Source of the DNA: Actinomycetota bacterium
GTDB lineage: Bacteria > Actinomycetota > Acidimicrobiia > Acidimicrobiales > AC-9
Length of the DNA stretch: 33,204 bases
NCBI GenBank assembly: GCA_005888295.1
Contig: VAWP01000067.1
Location: 1 to 33,204, forward strand
Reading direction: 5' to 3'
This document shows positions 3,862 to 29,207 of this stretch, in pieces. The first letter of the stretch is position 1. The number at the start of each line of letters is the position of its first letter. The notes beneath the pieces are model-generated. The model was not told the DNA's origin. It saw nothing but the letters and a program-made list of their open reading frames with translations, and did no database searches. Position numbers and translations under genes: made by a program.

Positions 3862-3927
3862 CCGGCCTCCCGGGCCTGCTGTGCTCCCTTCGAGCCGGCC
3901 TCCCGGGCCGGCTGTGCGCCCCTCGAG
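3862..3927 (-). repeat. Hairpin-repeat locus A: two tandem 33-bp units CCGGCCTCCCGGGCC(T/G)GCTGTGC(T/G)CCC(T/C)TCGAG
   Basis: Copies 3862-3894 and 3895-3927; minus strand reads CACAGCCGGCCCGGGAGGCCGG, matching units at 22285-22348 and 26895-27044; lies between ccdA stop and amidohydrolase start. Confidence 0.9.
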
Positions 3928-3939
3928 CCGGCACGGTGC

Positions 3940-14592: not shown

Positions 14593-14739
14593 CTGCGGGC
14601 CGTGCGCATGCGGGGGCCGCTCGTGGGGGTCCTTCACGGGGTCGCGCCCCAACGCGGCCTCGAGCCGGAACCGGCCGGTGGGGCTGCTCGCATCGTCGCT
14701 CCCGTCCTTCGTCCAGGGCAAGAGGGCGGCCACGAGCAC

Positions 14740-14824
14740 TCCCTGCGCCGGTATTACCCGGATCAGGTCCGACGGTCGGGAGCTGTCAGCTCACCCTCTC
14801 AGCCTGGTCACACCAGGCTCCCGT
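14740..14824 (-). promoter_or_regulatory. TPP (THI-box) riboswitch upstream of thiO
   Basis: Minus strand: CACGGGAGCCTGGTGTGACCAGGCTGAGAGGGTGAGC...GGACCTGATCCGGGTAATACCGGCGCAGGGAG, with the canonical CTGAGAGGG and ACCTGATC..GG.TAATACC.GCG.AGGGA blocks. Confidence 0.95.
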
Positions 14825-14836
14825 GTGGCCTCCACG

Positions 14837-21309: not shown

Positions 21310-21660
21310 ATGCTGCTAGACGGGATCGACCTCCAGGAGGCGGGGACCGCTGTGATCGACGATGCGCTGACCGCCCCTGCCGATCTCCAGGCCGACACCA
21401 GCTGGCGAGCTCGTGCCGCCTGCCGCCTCTGTCCGCCCGAGCTCTTCTTCCCCAGCGGCACGACCGGCATCGCCCTCGAGCGCATGGAGCGGGCCAAGCA
21501 GGTCTGCCGGGAGTGCGAGGTGCGACCCGAGTGCCTGCGGTTCGCCCTCGAGACGAGGCAGGAGTTCGGCATCTGGGGGGGCACCGACGAGAAGGAGCGG
21601 GCCCGCCTCCGCCGCAAGGGCCGGGTGTCCGCCCTCGTCGCCCCCCTGCCCACCCGCTGA
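21310..21660 (+). CDS. WhiB family transcriptional regulator
   Basis: 'WRARAACRLCPPELFFPSG...AKQVCRECEVRPECLRFALETRQEFGIWGGTDEKERARLRRKGR' with WhiB Cys pattern and G[I/V]WGG turn. Confidence 0.96.
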   Translation: MLLDGIDLQEAGTAVIDDALTAPADLQADTSWRARAACRLCPPELFFPSGTTGIALERMERAKQVCRECEVRPECLRFALETRQEFGIWGGTDEKERARLRRKGRVSALVAPLPTR

Positions 21661-21693
21661 TCCCCGCCCACCGGGAAGTCCCGTCGCCCCGGA

Positions 21694-22104
21694 CTAGCCC
21701 GCCCGGTCGGGACCGGCCCGATCGATCGTGATCCGCAAGAGGAGCCGGCGGTCCCGCTCCATGGCCCGGCGGTAGTCGTCCCAGTCGGGGTGCTCACCGC
21801 TGACGGACCGGTAGTAGGCGACCAGCTCGTCCATGGCGTCGGGGAGCTCCAGGAGGTCGACCGGCCCCTCCACCTGGACCCACGGACCGAAGAACTCGTC
21901 GCTCACCACGCACAGCGCCGCCCACGGGCGACGGCGTACGTTCACGGTCTTCATGGCGCCGGCTCGGGTGCTGACCACGGCCCGACCCCCACCGTCGATG
22001 GCGGTCGTCACCGGCGACAGCTGCGCACGACCGTCGCTTCGGGTGGTGGCCAGCACGCCCCGATGGTGCGAACGGATGAACCTGCGGGCATCCTCGGCGT
22101 CCAT
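21694..22104 (-). CDS. Pyridoxamine 5'-phosphate oxidase-fold protein, probable F420-dependent oxidoreductase
   Basis: 'MDAEDARRFIRSHHRGVLATTRSDGRAQLSPVTTAID...VVSTRAGAMKTVNVRRRPWAALCVVSDEFFGPWVQVEGPVDLLELPDAMDELVAYYRSVSGEHPDWDDYRRAM'. Confidence 0.88.
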   Translation of the reverse strand: MDAEDARRFIRSHHRGVLATTRSDGRAQLSPVTTAIDGGGRAVVSTRAGAMKTVNVRRRPWAALCVVSDEFFGPWVQVEGPVDLLELPDAMDELVAYYRSVSGEHPDWDDYRRAMERDRRLLLRITIDRAGPDRAG

Positions 22105-22120
22105 GACGAGCGAGGCTACC

Positions 22121-22242
22121 GTCTCGCCGGGCCAGCCTCCCGGGCTGGCCGTCTCGCCGGGCCAGCCTCCCGGGCTGGCCGTCTCGTCGGGGCCAGCCTC
22201 CCGGGCTGGCCGTCTCGTCGGGGCCAGCCTCCCGGGCTGGCC
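22121..22242 (-). repeat. Hairpin-repeat locus C, left array: four tandem 30-31 bp units GTCTCG(C/T)CGGG(G)CCAGCCTCCCGGGCTGGCC
   Basis: Units 22121-22150, 22151-22180 (identical), 22181-22211, 22212-22242 (identical); minus strand core GGCCAGCC-CGGGA-GGCTGGCC. Confidence 0.95.
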
Positions 22243-22284
22243 CATGCCAATCGTGTGGTCCCTGTACGATCCCGGCGGAGCCGC

Positions 22285-22348
22285 GCAGCCGGCCCGGGAG
22301 GCCGGCCCGAAGGCACGCAGCCGGCCCGGGAGGCCGGCCCGAAGGCAC
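22285..22348 (+). repeat. Hairpin-repeat locus C, right array: two identical tandem 32-bp units GCAGCCGGCCCGGGAGGCCGGCCCGAAGGCAC
   Basis: Units 22285-22316 and 22317-22348; opposite orientation to the left array; same core as loci A and D. Confidence 0.95.
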
Positions 22349-22365
22349 GGGAGGTGGGCGCCAGC

Positions 22366-24006
22366 ATGCTGAGCACGATGCAGGACAGACCGCTGACGAT
22401 CAGCGCCATCCTTCGCCACGGCCAGCAGACGTACGCCGACAGCGAGGTGGTCACGCATGGAGACGACGGCCGCCGCAGGGCCAGCTTCGCGACCGTGGGC
22501 GACCGAGCCGAGCGCCTGGCCGCCGCCCTGCGTGACCTGGGCGTGGAGCGGGGCGACCGGGTCGGTACCTTTTGCTGGAACGAGCAGGAGCACCTCGAGG
22601 CGTACCTGGCCGTTCCGAGCATGGGCGCCGTCCTCCACACCCTCAACATCCGGCTCTTCCCCGAACAGCTGAGCTACGTCGTGAACCACGCCGAGGATCG
22701 CCTCGTGCTCGTCGACGCGTCCTTGGCTCCCGTGCTGGCGCGGGTCGTCGGCGAGCTGAAGACGGTGCAGCACATCGTCGTGATCGGCGAGGGGGACGCC
22801 AGCCCGCTGGGCGAGACGCTTCGATACGAGCAGCTGCTCGCCGCCGCGGACACCGGCTTCGATTGGCCCGAGGTGGACGAGCGCGAGGCCGCTGCCATGT
22901 GCTACACGAGCGGCACGACGGGGAACCCCAAGGGGGTCGTGTACAGCCACCGGTCCACGTTCCTGCACAGTCTCGCCGTGACCTCCGCGGCCAGCCTCGC
23001 CGTCAACGAGCGCGACCGCGTGTTGGTCATCGTGCCCATGTTCCACGCCAACGCGTGGGGAATGCCCTATGCGGCGTGGCTGGTGGGGGCCGACTTCATC
23101 TTCCCGCAGCGCTTCGTCCAGCCCGAGCCGCTGGCGAGGATCATCGCCGAGGAGCGGCCGACAACGTCGGAGGGGGTACCGACGGTCTTGAACGACCTCC
23201 TCCACTACGGAGAGGACCACGATCTCGACCTCTCCTCGCTGCGCCTGGTCACGGCGGGCGGGTCGGCCGTGCCACGAGCCCTCATCGAGCGCTACCGGGA
23301 CCGCTACGGGGTCTGCATCGTGCAGGGCTGGGGGATGACCGAGACGAGCCCGCTCTGCGCGTTGTCCTTCCCGCCCAAGGGCGCGGCCGAGGACGAGGAG
23401 GTGGACTATCTGGCCCGCAGCGGCCGGGTGGTCCCCGGAGTCGAGGTTCGCGTCGTGGCCCCCGACGGCTCCGTGTTGCCACGCGACGGGAGGTCGGTCG
23501 GGGAGTTCGAGGTGCGCGGGGCCTGGATCACGGGCTCGTACTACGGCGACCCGTCACCCGAGCGGTTCCACGACGGCTGGCTGCGAACGGGGGACGTCGG
23601 GACGCTGGACGGCCGCGGGTACATGCAGATCACCGACCGCACCAAGGACGTCGTCAAATCGGGTGGCGAGTGGATCTCGTCGGTAGAGCTCGAGACCGCG
23701 CTCATGTCCCACCCCTCCGTGTTCGAGGCCGCCGTCGTCGGGGTGCCCGACCCCCGGTGGGACGAACGCCCCCTGGCCTGCGTGGTGCCCTGCGAGGGCG
23801 CCGACCCCGATCCGCTCCAGCTGCGGCGCTTCCTCGCCGACCGGTTCGCCAGGTTCTGGTTGCCAGAGCGCTGGGCGATCGTCGAGGAGGTGCCCAAGAC
23901 CAGTGTCGGCAAGTTCGACAAGAAGGTGCTGCGGGCCCGCTTCGCCGACGGTTCCCTGCACGTCGTCACGGCCGGCGACCCCGCGCAGCGCCCGGCGGGC
24001 GATTGA
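22366..24006 (+). CDS. Long/medium-chain fatty acid-CoA ligase (AMP-dependent synthetase)
   Basis: '[20 protein letters not shown]', '[11 protein letters not shown]', '[40 protein letters not shown]', '[13 protein letters not shown]'; SD GGGAGGTGG before ATG 22366. Confidence 0.95.
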
Positions 24007-24074
24007 GCCACGGCCCGGTGGCGGGCGTGGCGTCCGGCGAGGCCGCCTGCAACAGCGCGAGGCAGACTGGTGGG

Positions 24075-25508
24075 GTGACGGATGCGTTAGCGGCCGAGCT
24101 GTCGGCGGCGATGGCACCCGACAGGGTCCGTAGCGGTCCCCTCGAGCTGACCCTCTACCGACGGGACGCGTCCCTCCTCGAAGGCCAGCCGGGGGTGGTG
24201 TGCTTTCCGTCCACCACCGACGAGGTGCAGGCAGCAGTCACGATCGCCCGGCGACACGGTCGGGCGGTGGTGCCGCGGGGATCCGGAACCGGGCTGGCGG
24301 GCGGCGCCGTCCCGGTCGGGGTTGACGGAGCCGAGCCGGTCGTCATCGTGACCACCAAGATGGATCGCGTCCTCGAGATCGACGCGGACGCGCGGGTCGC
24401 ATGGGTCCAGCCCGGCGTGCTCAACCTCGACCTGTCGCGCCAGGTCGCTCACCTCGGATTGCATTTCGCGCCCGACCCCTCCAGCCAGCAGTCGTGCTCG
24501 GTCGGGGGCAACGTCGCCAACAACTCGGGTGGTCCGCACTGCCTGGCCTACGGCGTCACCAGCGCGCACGTACTGGCCCTCGAGGTCGTGCTCCCCGACG
24601 GGTCGCTGGCGCTGCTCGGTGACCTCGACCCGGAGCCTCCCGGCTACGACCTGCGGGGCGCGTTCGTCGGTAGCGAGGGGACGATGGGCATCGCCGTGCG
24701 CATCGCCGTGCGCCTGTCGCCCGACCCCCCAGCGGTGCGGACGGTGCTGGTCGACTTCGCCTCCATCGAGACCGCCGCCTCGACGGTCACCGGCATCATC
24801 GCCGCCGGCCTGGTACCCGCCGCCCTGGAGATGATGGACGCCCGGATCACATCGGCGGTCGAGGACTACGTGCATGCCGGCTTCCCGCGCGACGCGGCGG
24901 CCGTGCTGCTGGTGGAGCTCGACGGGCTGCCGGCGGGCGTGGAGGCCGCGACACAGATCGTCGCCGACGTCGCTGCTGCGAACGGCGCCCGCGGCGTGCG
25001 TGTGGCCGCGGACGAAGCCGAGCGGGCGCTGCTGTGGAAAGGCCGGAAGTCGGCCTTTGGTGCCATCGCCCGGATCGCCCCCGACTACTACCTCCACGAC
25101 ACGGTCGTGCCGCGCACCCGCCTGGTGGAGGTCCTCTCGGAGGTCTACGAGATCGCAGCCCGGCACCGGCTGCTGGTCGTGAACGTGTTCCACGCGGGGG
25201 ACGGCAACCTCCATCCGCTGCTGGTGTTCGACCGGAGGGAGCCCGGCGTGATGGCCCGGGTGCTCGCCGCCGGTACCGACATGATCGCCGCCTGCGTCGC
25301 CGTCGGCGGAGTGCTCTCCGGCGAGCACGGCATCGGTCTCGAGAAGCGGGACCACATGGGGCTGATCTTCTCGGACGACGACCTCGACGCCCAGAGGCGC
25401 CTCCGACTGGCTTTCGACCCCGAGCAGGCGTGCAACCCCCACAAGGTGCTGCCGTCGGGCTCCGGCTGCGGCGACCTGCAATCGGTGCCGGCGGGGGCCT
25501 GGATATGA
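24075..25508 (+). CDS. glcD: Glycolate oxidase subunit GlcD-like FAD-binding protein
   Basis: '[19 protein letters not shown]', '[39 protein letters not shown]', '[18 protein letters not shown]', '[14 protein letters not shown]'; GTG start. Confidence 0.92.
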
Positions 25509-26446
25509 CGGGACGGCCACAGACAGCGGCGCGCACTGACAGGCCGCTGGAGGACTTCGCCGCCGAGATCGGGACCAGTGACCCCGTTGTGGTGGTCGGC
25601 GGGCGCACGCAGTGGGGGGTGGGCGGCGAGCCCGACCCGACGGCTCGGGAGGTGCACGCTCCACGAGGCGTGGTGGCGCACGAGCCGGCGGAGATGATCG
25701 TGCGGGTTCGCGCCGGCACGACGGTGGCCGAGCTCGACGCCGTGCTGGCCGAGGGCGGACAGACGATCGCCCTCGATCCCGCCCACCCCGAGCGGGCGAC
25801 GGTGGGCGGCGTCCTGGCCGTGGGGCAGAGTGGGCCTCGCCGCCTCGGCTGGGGCCCGGTTCGTGACACGCTGCTCGAGGCGCGGTTCGTGTCCGCCGAG
25901 GGCCGGCTCATCCGCGCCGGCGGACCGGTGGTGAAGAACGTCACCGGGTTCGACCTCTGCCGTCTCCTGGTCGGCTCGCTCGGGACGATCGGCTTGCTCG
26001 CCGAGATCGTCCTGCGGGTGCGACCCCGTCCTCCGGTAGCCGTCTGGCTTCGCGGCGCCGCCGATGACCCCGACCGCCTTCGCCAGGCCCTGTTCCGCCC
26101 GTCATCGATCCTGTGGGACGGCATCGACTGCTGGGTGCTGCTCGAAGGTCACCCGGCGGACGTCGAGGCCGAGATCAAGGCCATCGGGCCGGGCTTCGAT
26201 CCGGTCGCGGAGCCCCCGCCCCTGCCGAGCGGCGGCCGGTGGTCGATGAGCCCTTCGGCCGTCCGCAACGTCGTCGCCACACTCGAGCCGGGCACGTTCG
26301 TCGCCGAGGTCGGCGTCGGCATCGTGCACGAGTCGACGGCTCCGCCGTCGCGTCGGGTGCAGCCGGCGACGGCCGCTCTGCATCAGCGCATCAAGGCCAA
26401 CTTCGATCCCACCGGGCGTCTGAACCCGGGGCGGATGGTGACATGA
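25505..26446 (+). CDS. glcE: Glycolate oxidase subunit GlcE-like FAD-binding protein
   Basis: 'RVRAGTTVAELDAVLAEGGQTIALDPAHPERATVGGVLAVGQSGPRRLGWGPVRDTLL', 'GGPVVKNVTGFDLCRLLVGSLGTIGLLAEI', 'NFDPTGRLNPGRM'; overlaps glcD by 4 bp. Confidence 0.92.
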   Translation: MTGRPQTAARTDRPLEDFAAEIGTSDPVVVVGGRTQWGVGGEPDPTAREVHAPRGVVAHEPAEMIVRVRAGTTVAELDAVLAEGGQTIALDPAHPERATVGGVLAVGQSGPRRLGWGPVRDTLLEARFVSAEGRLIRAGGPVVKNVTGFDLCRLLVGSLGTIGLLAEIVLRVRPRPPVAVWLRGAADDPDRLRQALFRPSSILWDGIDCWVLLEGHPADVEAEIKAIGPGFDPVAEPPPLPSGGRWSMSPSAVRNVVATLEPGTFVAEVGVGIVHESTAPPSRRVQPATAALHQRIKANFDPTGRLNPGRMVT

Positions 26447-27741
26447 GACTGGCCGTCGCCGACGAGGACCTGTCGGCCTGCGTGTCCTGCGGCCTGTGCC
26501 TTCCGCACTGCCCCACGTACCGGGTAACGGGGGAGGAGTCCGCTTCGCCGCGGGGTCGGATCGCCGCCATGCGGGCGACGCACGCCACGGACGCACCTGC
26601 GGGACCGGAGTTCGCCGAGTTCATGGACCTGTGTGTCCAATGCCGCGGGTGCGAGGTGGCGTGCCCGTCGTCGGTACCCTTCGGGCGTCTCATGGAGGGT
26701 GCACGCGCGACCCTCGCCCGCGAGACGGCGTACCAACCGCGCCGGCGACGGATGGGCTACGCCGTGCTCGGCCACCACCGCCTCCTGCTCCTCGCCTCGT
26801 CGGCCGCTGCGGTGCTCCAGCGCCTGCACCTGGTTCCGGCGCGGCTCGGCCTGCCCCGGTTGCCCCTGCGACGCCCGCGGCTGCGACCAGGAGATACAGC
26901 CGGCCCGGGAGGCCGGCCCATCGGTACAGCCGGCCCGGGAGGCCGGCCCATCGGTACAGCCGGCCCGGGAGGCCGGCCCATCGGTACAGCCGGCCCGGGA
27001 GGCCGGCCCATCGGTACAGCCGGCGTGGGAGGCAGGCCCCCGGAGCCCGACGCCTGGCTGTTCACCGGCTGCGTCATGGACGCCTGGATGCGCCCGACTC
27101 ACGCCGCAGCCCTACGGGTGATGCACGCCACGGGCGCCCGCGTGGCATTGCCCGGTCCTGGCGGCGACTGCTGCGGTGCCCTGCACGTGCACGCCGGGCT
27201 CCGCCGCCAGGCCGAGGCGTTGGCCCGCCGCGTCATGGCGTCCATGCCCGGTGACGCCCACGTGGTGGTCGACTCGGCCGGGTGCGGTGCCGCGCTCAAG
27301 GACTACGGAGCGCTGCTCGGGACCGCCGAGGCACGACGATTTTCCGACCGGGTGCTCGACGTACACGAGTGGCTGGCCGCCCGCGCCGGCCGGTTGCCGG
27401 CCGCCCGGCGGCGGCTCACCGGCCCGGTCGCGGTCCAGGACCCGTGTCACCTCCGCCACGTCCAGCAGGCCCATCAGCACGTGCGAACCGTGCTCGCCCC
27501 CTACGCCGACCTGGTCGAGCTGGGCGACGACGGCCTGTGTTGCGGAGCGGGCGGAGCCTACGCCGGTATCCACCCAGCGATGGCCCAGGAGATCCGGGCC
27601 CGAAAGGTCGCAGCCATCGCCGCGACCGGGGCTCCCGTCGTCGCCAGCGCCAACCCAGGGTGCATCGTGCACCTCGCCGGAGCGGGGCTCGACGTTCGCC
27701 ATCCGGTCGACATCATCGCCTGGTCGCTCGATGGCGGCTGA
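26443..27741 (+). CDS. glcF: Glycolate oxidase iron-sulfur subunit GlcF-like, with in-frame hairpin-repeat array
   Basis: Two CxxCxxCxxxCP clusters (CVSCGLCLPHCP, CVQCRGCEVACP) and CCG motifs (FTGCVMD, GDCCGALH, DPCHLRH, GLCCGAGGAY); the interdomain linker carries (TAGPGGRPIG)4. Confidence 0.93.
   Translation: MRLAVADEDLSACVSCGLCLPHCPTYRVTGEESASPRGRIAAMRATHATDAPAGPEFAEFMDLCVQCRGCEVACPSSVPFGRLMEGARATLARETAYQPRRRRMGYAVLGHHRLLLLASSAAAVLQRLHLVPARLGLPRLPLRRPRLRPGDTAGPGGRPIGTAGPGGRPIGTAGPGGRPIGTAGPGGRPIGTAGVGGRPPEPDAWLFTGCVMDAWMRPTHAAALRVMHATGARVALPGPGGDCCGALHVHAGLRRQAEALARRVMASMPGDAHVVVDSAGCGAALKDYGALLGTAEARRFSDRVLDVHEWLAARAGRLPAARRRLTGPVAVQDPCHLRHVQQAHQHVRTVLAPYADLVELGDDGLCCGAGGAYAGIHPAMAQEIRARKVAAIAATGAPVVASANPGCIVHLAGAGLDVRHPVDIIAWSLDGG
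26895..27044 (+). repeat. Hairpin-repeat locus D: four identical 30-bp units TACAGCCGGCCCGGGAGGCCGGCCCATCGG plus one degenerate unit, inside glcF
   Basis: Units 26895-26924, 26925-26954, 26955-26984, 26985-27014, degenerate 27015-27044 (TACAGCCGGCGTGGGAGGCAGGCCCCCGGA). Confidence 0.97.
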
Positions 27742-27934
27742 CCTCGACGACATCCGCAGCCGCCTCGAAGCCATCGCCGAGGAGCTCGCCGACATGGCCA
27801 TGGAGGCGTTGCGCGACGCCATCGAAGCCGGCGAACAGCGCCGGCCGGCCGAGGAGCGCCGCCTCACCCAGGCACGCCGCTCGGTGGAGCGCGCCGCTTC
27901 GTTGCTCCAAGCAGAGGATGACGTGGGCGGGTGA
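27731..27934 (+). CDS. Small coiled-coil-like hypothetical protein (67 aa), overlaps end of glcF
   Basis: MAADLDDIRSRLEAIAEELADMAMEALRDAIEAGEQRRPAEERRLTQARRSVERAASLLQAEDDVGG; ATG at 27731 inside the glcF 3' end. Confidence 0.65.
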   Translation: MAADLDDIRSRLEAIAEELADMAMEALRDAIEAGEQRRPAEERRLTQARRSVERAASLLQAEDDVGG

Positions 27935-28012
27935 GGAACCGGCACCCGTCGCCGGCCGTCAGTCGCCAGTGGGCCGACCGAAGGCGAGGCCCCGGAGCAG
28001 GGGAGCTCCCCC

Positions 28013-28073
28013 CGTTCCAGATTGCGTCGAAAACGACCCGAACTCCCGTCCGTTTTCGACGTGATCTGGAACG
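28013..28073. repeat. 23-bp inverted repeat (two mismatches, 15-nt spacer) between convergent genes; candidate terminator or 3'-end hairpin
   Basis: CGTTCCAGATTGCGTCGAAAACG (28013-28035) / CGTTTTCGACGTGATCTGGAACG (28051-28073). Confidence 0.85.
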
Positions 28074-28169
28074 ACGGTTGTATCCGAAGGCGCCCCCCCG
28101 TGCGGACTCGTCGGCGCGGCAGACAGGCCGAGACGCTCGGCCGGATCGCCAGCGACAAACGGAGACGCC

Positions 28170-29207
28170 TCAGTCCCGGTTCAGCGCGTCGATGAGCTGG
28201 CGGAGGCGGCCGTAGTGGATGCGGTCGAAGTGCAGTGCGATGCGCGGCAGGTCGACGTTGTCCCGGCCGGCGCGCTCCTGCGGCAGCGGGTCGGTGCGGT
28301 GGATGTCGCCATGGGCGCAGATGTCGGCGAACTCGCGGTTGAGGAGGGCGAGCTTGTCGTCCGATGGTGCCGTGCGCAGCCTGATGACCGACAGGTCACC
28401 GACCACCCGAAGCGAGTGGTAGGTGCGGTAGAAGTCGAGGACCTCCTGCGCCGCGCAGGCGACGTCGTCGGTGATGCGGTACAAGGCGGTGTCGTCGGGC
28501 GAGACGAGGCCCCGAGCGCCGAGCTCCTGGGTGACGAACCGTTCCCACGCCCGCCAGTAGCTGCCTTCGGGCACGTCGACGAAGACCAGCGGTGACGGCT
28601 CGGCCTTCCCGGTCTGGAGCAGGGTCAACAGCTCGAAGGACTCGTCCAGGGTGCCGAAACCACCGGGCAGGACGGCGTACCCGTCGGACTCCTTGAGGAG
28701 CATCAGCTTGCGGGTGAAGAAGTACTTCATCTCCACCAGCTTGGGGTCGCCGGAGATGAAGGCGTTGGGCGCGTCCTCGAACGGCAACCGGATGTTGATC
28801 CCGAAGGCCTTGTCCGGGCCTGCGCCCTCCAAGCCGGCCGCCATGATCCCCGGCCCAGCGCCCGTCACCAGCATCCACCCGGCCCGTGCGAGGTTGGCCG
28901 CCAGCTCCCTCGCCTGGGCGTAGAGCGGATCGTCGGCTCGCGTCCGGGCCGAGCCGAACATGGTCAGCTTGGGGACGGACCGGTAGGGTGCGAAGACGGC
29001 GAACGCCTCCGCCATCTCCTTCACCGCTGCGTTGGTGATCTTCAGATCCAGGCGGTCGGCCCCGTTGCTCGCCATGCGGATCGTCGTGGCCAGGATCTCG
29101 AACAGCTGATCGCGGTTCGCCTGGGCGCCCGCAGCATCGAGGAGCTCCTCGATGCTGCGATCGATCTCGGGTCGGCCGGTTCGACGTCGCCGGGTGCGCT
29201 CGGCCAC
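28170..29207 (-). CDS. LOG family / TIGR00730-like Rossmann-fold nucleotide-binding protein
   Basis: 'VPKLTMFGSARTRADDPLYAQARELAANLARAGWMLVTGAGPGIMAAGLEGA', 'YAVLPGGFGTLDESFELLTLLQTGK'; GTG start at 29207 chosen, exact start uncertain. Confidence 0.88.
   Translation of the reverse strand: MAERTRRRRTGRPEIDRSIEELLDAAGAQANRDQLFEILATTIRMASNGADRLDLKITNAAVKEMAEAFAVFAPYRSVPKLTMFGSARTRADDPLYAQARELAANLARAGWMLVTGAGPGIMAAGLEGAGPDKAFGINIRLPFEDAPNAFISGDPKLVEMKYFFTRKLMLLKESDGYAVLPGGFGTLDESFELLTLLQTGKAEPSPLVFVDVPEGSYWRAWERFVTQELGARGLVSPDDTALYRITDDVACAAQEVLDFYRTYHSLRVVGDLSVIRLRTAPSDDKLALLNREFADICAHGDIHRTDPLPQERAGRDNVDLPRIALHFDRIHYGRLRQLIDALNRD

Follow-up and report, generated by a model that had tools for sequence, protein, structure and literature searches.

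The glcF locus and its hairpin array

The stretch of DNA analysed here (the window, 33,204 nucleotides in full) belongs to the genome G000, which forms, with its congeners G001 and G002, a set of three congeneric genomes. Within the glcF gene of the window, four identical 30-bp units and a degenerate fifth occupy positions 26895–27044 in frame:

26443..27742, plus strand: glcF open reading frame, 432 aa, with Fer4_8 and two CCG stretches, array in frame
26895..26924, plus strand: hairpin unit 1 (core 26899–26917)
26925..26954, plus strand: hairpin unit 2, identical (core 26929–26947)
26955..26984, plus strand: hairpin unit 3, identical (core 26959–26977)
26985..27014, plus strand: hairpin unit 4, identical (core 26989–27007)
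27015..27044, plus strand: degenerate fifth unit, TAGVGGRPPE, the fifth 10-residue step relative to the orthologs

The identical unit, present in four copies, is TACAGCCGGCCCGGGAGGCCGGCCCATCGG. TRF delimits the array to 26895–27039 (period 30, 4.8 copies, 97% matches), and a repeat search returns four 100% identical 30-bp units, starting at 26895, 26925, 26955 and 26985, and a degenerate one from 27015. Both confirm the composition given in an earlier note on this DNA, with a unit number that, in an assembly fragmented into 198 contigs, could be off by one. The unit length keeps the frame, as that note also stated: 30 bp make ten codons, and the glcF reading frame runs uninterrupted through the array, which is translated as four copies of TAGPGGRPIG followed by TAGVGGRPPE (residues 152–201, 50 residues).

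The Fer4_8 domain of GlcF (4Fe-4S dicluster) covers residues 10–78, two CCG stretches lie downstream (the best at residues 329–411), and the FTGCVMD segment begins at residue 207. The array lies in the interdomain linker, between the 4Fe-4S and the first CCG domains. An AlphaFold2 model built with 35 orthologs in the alignment has a mean pLDDT of 87, with residues 157–192 below 50; in this model the Gly/Pro linker described earlier is predicted to form a disordered loop, and the remainder of GlcF to be well folded. When the whole array is folded as RNA, the units pair with one another and the fold is moderately better than that of shuffled sequences (z −2.4). At this modest score we propose single hairpins, not one specific long RNA structure.

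Orthologs and the history of the insertion

The GlcF linker, measured from LPRLPLRR to FTGCV, is 25–35 residues long in all 79 Acidimicrobiia orthologs from outside G000 and G001 (a few rows represent a duplicate genome), and 25 or 26 residues long in 62 of them. None of the 79 carries the array. The earlier proposal of a clean in-frame insertion into the interdomain linker is borne out, and distant orthologs with the same repeat linker, the finding named as evidence against it, were looked for and not found. The linker has 75 residues in G000 (25+50), 65 in G001 (25+40) and a plain 25 in G002. The arrays of G000 and G001 are inserted at the same codon, between ..T and DAW, and add exactly five and four units. 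The predicted variation in length is thus seen between species, at five, four and zero units, numbers that may be off in three fragmented assemblies. Among named relatives, those closest to GlcF come from Acidimicrobiales and Acidimicrobiia metagenome assemblies. Judged from the ortholog sequences, the glcF array is a recent insertion comprising an exact multiple of the unit, not an old linker.

The G001 units read TAGPEGRPSD (twice) and TAGPGGRPRD (twice), with a spacer unlike that of the window. These whole-unit differences, and the spacers peculiar to each array, indicate that the arrays have been homogenised within each species. In the GlcF tree, G001 and G002 are sisters (support 93/79), and their nucleotide identity is 86.8%, against 83.0 and 81.9% for the other congener pairs. 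It follows that the array either existed in the common ancestor, with a precise loss in G002, or arose twice at one codon, and the need for one of these events counts against the explanation preferred below.

Two separate insertions in G000 and G001 would agree with this branching order, by tree and by nucleotide identity alike, and with the differing spacers. However, the codon position is exactly identical in the two genomes, and spacer differences are also compatible with one origin, since arrays homogenise. The same distribution, with G000 and G001 carrying the element and G002 lacking it, recurs at a further site, which also speaks for one old insertion. We consider two insertions possible, if somewhat unlikely.

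The further site (L131/L191:3000/L239) holds a single intergenic unit in G001 and a degenerate one in G000. In G002 the site is cleanly empty, with a possible direct repeat, GTCG, on its flanks.

A genus-specific family of CGGGA-loop hairpins

The glcF units share the core GCCGGCC-CGGGA-GGCCGGC with a family dispersed through the genome. At up to two mismatches, this core has 148 matches in the window genome, as compared to 2 for a reversed-pattern control; at up to one mismatch, it has 131, 137 and 97 matches in the three congeneric genomes and 0–3 in each of 56 further members of the order. A hairpin search over the window and 120 stretches returned 262 with the CGGGA loop, and 0–9 when the loop was permuted. 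The unit, about 30 bp long, comprises a GC stem of 7–8 bp around an invariant CGGGA loop, followed by a short 3′ tail rich in purines, and 30-nt units fold into the 7–8 bp stem.

The stems covary while the loop stays fixed. On matches picked without a pairing requirement, 42 compensatory stem changes are counted, against 14.6 in shuffles (the maximum of 500 shuffles being 26), and one compensatory pair is seen in up to 12 arrays. Stem variants include GCCCGC/GCGGGC, GCCAGC/GCTGGC, GCCGGT/ACCGGC and GCCGAC/GTCGGC.

The arrays are direct head-to-tail tandems with a commonest period of 30. Core spacings equal 30 in 66 of about 120 cases, and spacings of 31–33 and of 51–55 also occur. The range of 30–33 bp given in the earlier note therefore stands for part of the family and falls short of its full range. 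The 51–55 bp subclass (L138:2958, L168:2980, L178:2943, L180:2928, L204:2985 and others) contains a second small hairpin, GGCGC-nnn-GCGCC, between the cores; inside open reading frames its spacing is 51 or 54. Three further arrays lie in the window itself:

3862..3932, minus strand: family array, intergenic, period 33, one full and one degenerate unit
22119..22242, minus strand: family array, intergenic, four units, stem variant GCCAGC/GCTGGC, periods 30, 31 and 31
22276..22349, plus strand: family array, intergenic, two units, period 32, next called gene 16 bp on

The CGGGA hairpins are best read as a new genus-specific family of palindromes resembling REPs and Rickettsia palindromic elements (RPEs).

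Two features of the window stand apart from this family. A TPP riboswitch (Rfam RF00059, 63.4 bits against a cut-off of 54.3) lies at 14723–14834 on the minus strand, upstream of minus-strand genes. At 28013–28073 there is a second, unrelated palindrome, with 23-nt arms that are 91% complementary and 15 nt apart. Its arm motif, CCAGATNNCGTCGAAAACG, has 13 matches in the genome at up to two mismatches, against 0 for the control, and the palindrome possibly represents another small dispersed family.

Copies inside other genes

Family arrays were collected from the stretches around arrays in the three genomes and from the window, a sample of 156 that covers many, not all, of the copies. By the approximate calls of a home-made gene caller based on codon usage, 65 of the 156 arrays lie in predicted open reading frames: 21 are internal, flanked on either side by coding signal, 33 are near the C terminus and 11 near the N terminus. 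The internal class had 25 members at first, four of which were chance stem-loops and were dropped before the statistics. The suggestion that a frame-compatible length is selected or tolerated only in glcF does not survive these counts.

The intragenic copies are biased in strand and in frame. The core is in sense orientation in 58 of the 65 arrays, and in 19 of the 21 internal ones. Frame 0, which encodes AGPGGRP, is used by 39 of the 58 sense arrays (p=2e-7) and by 14 of the 19 internal ones, frame statistics that carry a partial ascertainment effect, in that a frame-shifting copy would end the reading frame and not be called inside one. In reading frames, 54 of 55 spacings are divisible by 3, compared with 35 of 65 in intergenic arrays (p=4e-9). 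Arrays flanked by co-directional genes likewise mostly have the core in sense orientation (38 versus 11), and among 50 such arrays in the loci examined, none was seen to interrupt a gene found whole elsewhere.

The proteins that carry arrays include a DnaE-type polymerase, CarA, UvrD-like helicases, acyl-CoA dehydrogenases and a CoA-transferase, as well as MerR, DivIVA, YchF, a Zincin_2 protein and a DSHCT helicase. CarA of the window genome reads NHPVRRLESNGVAGPGGRPGGVEITSQNH, where 20 relatives, both congeners among them, have NHPV......VEITSQNH or a close variant. The insert is exactly ten residues, i.e., one unit, lies within the glutaminase domain and is unique among the 21 genomes. YchF has a core-bearing insert in G001 and G002 that is missing from G000 and from nearly every other relative; the insert at that place in G010 is of a different sequence. 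A FadD-like protein differs from that of G001 by an exact 30-bp insert, and L189/L210 differ in unit number, three versus one, in frame.

In the DnaE-type polymerase gene, L158:2991 (G000) and L197:3012 (G001) carry the core at the same place on opposite strands; close to the N terminus, L197 holds one more copy.

Origin and maintenance of the glcF array

The array in glcF is probably one of some 100 or more copies per genome of these genus-specific dispersed palindromes, locally amplified and kept where frame and fold permit. This explanation builds on direct observations, namely the insertion, the family, the stem covariation, the biases in frame and strand, and the whole-unit differences between species. 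A unit would have landed in frame between the two GlcF domains in an ancestor of these species, and the array would then have grown in whole 30-bp steps by tandem duplication and homogenisation, to five units in the window and four in the congener; slippage or unequal recombination may have driven this growth. The ten-codon unit, stop-free in the glcF frame, encodes a small flexible Gly/Pro/Arg peptide (TAGPGGRPxx), and the host protein would tolerate the added disordered loop, with a presumably near-neutral effect on GlcF. Ten stop-free codons and a small flexible peptide would explain this tolerance, and purifying selection would eliminate copies that disrupt frame or fold.

Spread may depend on an enzyme that acts in trans on the hairpin, as for a REP-like non-autonomous element. 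In a profile search with PF01797 (Y1/RAYT transposase), G000 (about 92% complete) and G002 have no match, and G001 has one match of 34 positions, below threshold. RAYT-driven REP spread was rejected, as no Y1/RAYT passes the cut-off in the three congeneric genomes. A consistent target-site duplication was not found at the empty sites, some of which have possible direct repeats of 4–6 bp that vary in length. The exact 20-mer core occurs in just two viral contigs, one copy each (L251:5290–5309 and L252:6770–6789), which may reflect either coincidence in GC-rich sequence or phages that infect related hosts, and a plasmid search with the array region gave no match. On these two results, spread by phages or plasmids was also set aside.

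The core contains no stop codon on either strand in any frame, and stop codons therefore do not explain the sense bias. The bias reads as a sign of an effect at the level of insertion or of RNA. One possibility is that the hairpins are primarily RNA elements (terminators, or hairpins for mRNA stability or processing) selected at gene ends, with the intragenic copies, that of glcF included, as spill-over. The sense bias between co-directional genes would fit, as would the many arrays that begin 1–10 nt past the upstream stop codon, the stem covariation with a fixed loop, and the proposal that hairpin clusters near stop codons act as terminators (PMC8355165). However, intergenic arrays are commoner between co-directional genes than in convergent gaps, no T-run terminator is called at the arrays in window positions 21600–28200, and presence and unit number vary among the three species at many sites, as would not be expected of conserved regulatory elements; strong termination within carA or glcF would moreover be harmful. 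We judge this reading unlikely. Ordinary T-run terminators, tried as a candidate for window positions 21600–28200, were rejected for lack of any at the arrays, and an Rfam 15 scan of the window gave no family above the gathering score there.

More speculatively, the CGGGA-loop element might be inserted by preference in the sense of transcription and, within genes, in a single reading frame, through a single-strand, transcription-linked mechanism, generating ready-made Gly/Pro linkers in conserved enzymes; we hold this stronger form to be quite doubtful.

The array could also be a selected linker of tunable length that sets the spacing of the GlcF domains through slippage. Two species keep it with differing unit numbers, and the peptide is flexible, with disorder predicted, but G002 and 78 other orthologs outside G000 and G001 have 25–35 residues, and copies of this element occur across many unrelated proteins, which makes such a role very unlikely. 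An artefact of short-read metagenome assembly is barely credible: the 198 contigs and four identical 30-bp units near read length might raise the suspicion, but the independently assembled G001 has a differing four-unit array with its own spacers at the same codon, and 156 family arrays with array-specific spacers occur across three genomes.

Comparison with known palindromic repeats

Palindromes inside genes are already on record. Rickettsia palindromic elements lie in frame within protein genes of many unrelated kinds, and also have extragenic copies (PMC10969869). The likeness to them drawn in the earlier note is supported, as in-frame insertion into unrelated protein genes is shared (here ortholog-checked for GlcF and CarA). 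RPEs are about 150 bp long and encode a conserved peptide, whereas the unit here is a 30-bp, tandem, GC-rich one with array-specific spacers, in Acidimicrobiia; the distinction from the RPE families is drawn by length, not by sequence comparison.

GTAG/CGTC REPs share with the present family stem-loops of 20–40 bp, high copy number, a location mostly after coding regions and intragenic copies, among which are clusters that encode 43–82 aa in Thauera and R. conorii (PMC3733652). CGTC REPs, with a stem of 8–9 bp and a loop of 4–5 nt, have hairpins like those described here (PMC3733652). That survey nowhere uses the word Actinobacteria. Among 282 units, no unpaired GTAG/CGTC tag has a conserved position within 10 nt of the stem; upstream/downstream counts are 8/1 for CGTC, 8/1 for GTAG and 40/34 for GACG (the reverse complement). 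In addition, REPs occur predominantly as head-head or tail-tail dimers, in contrast to the direct head-to-tail tandems found here, and GTAG-REP genomes have a RAYT gene, which is not found over the cut-off in the three congeneric genomes.

PARCELs are tandem coding repeats of variable number in DNA with dyad symmetry (PMC2996958), all of which the present arrays share. Their units are amphipathic motifs of 25 residues in reading frames of no assigned function, whereas the units here are ten-residue Gly/Pro/Arg segments, predicted to be disordered, inside conserved metabolic and repair enzymes. The hairpin clusters proposed as intrinsic terminators are made up of one hairpin or more shortly downstream of stop codons (PMC8355165) and have no sequence conservation, in contrast to the one dispersed sequence family here, which also enters genes.

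A literature search of partial coverage turned up no earlier description of a family of this sort from Acidimicrobiia. The family is new, while palindromic repeats in proteins are already known as a kind; its distinct traits are that it is actinobacterial, untagged, arranged as head-to-tail 30-bp units, and biased in sense and frame.

In sum, an actinobacterial, untagged, RAYT-less, head-to-tail family joins the few palindromic repeats that enter proteins. It provides many natural in-frame insertions, some of them in central enzymes such as CarA, and the three congeneric genomes offer empty sites. The intragenic sense-strand bias calls for a mechanism. How a 30-bp palindrome spreads with no evident transposase, and whether new protein linkers can originate from short repeats, thereby become testable questions.
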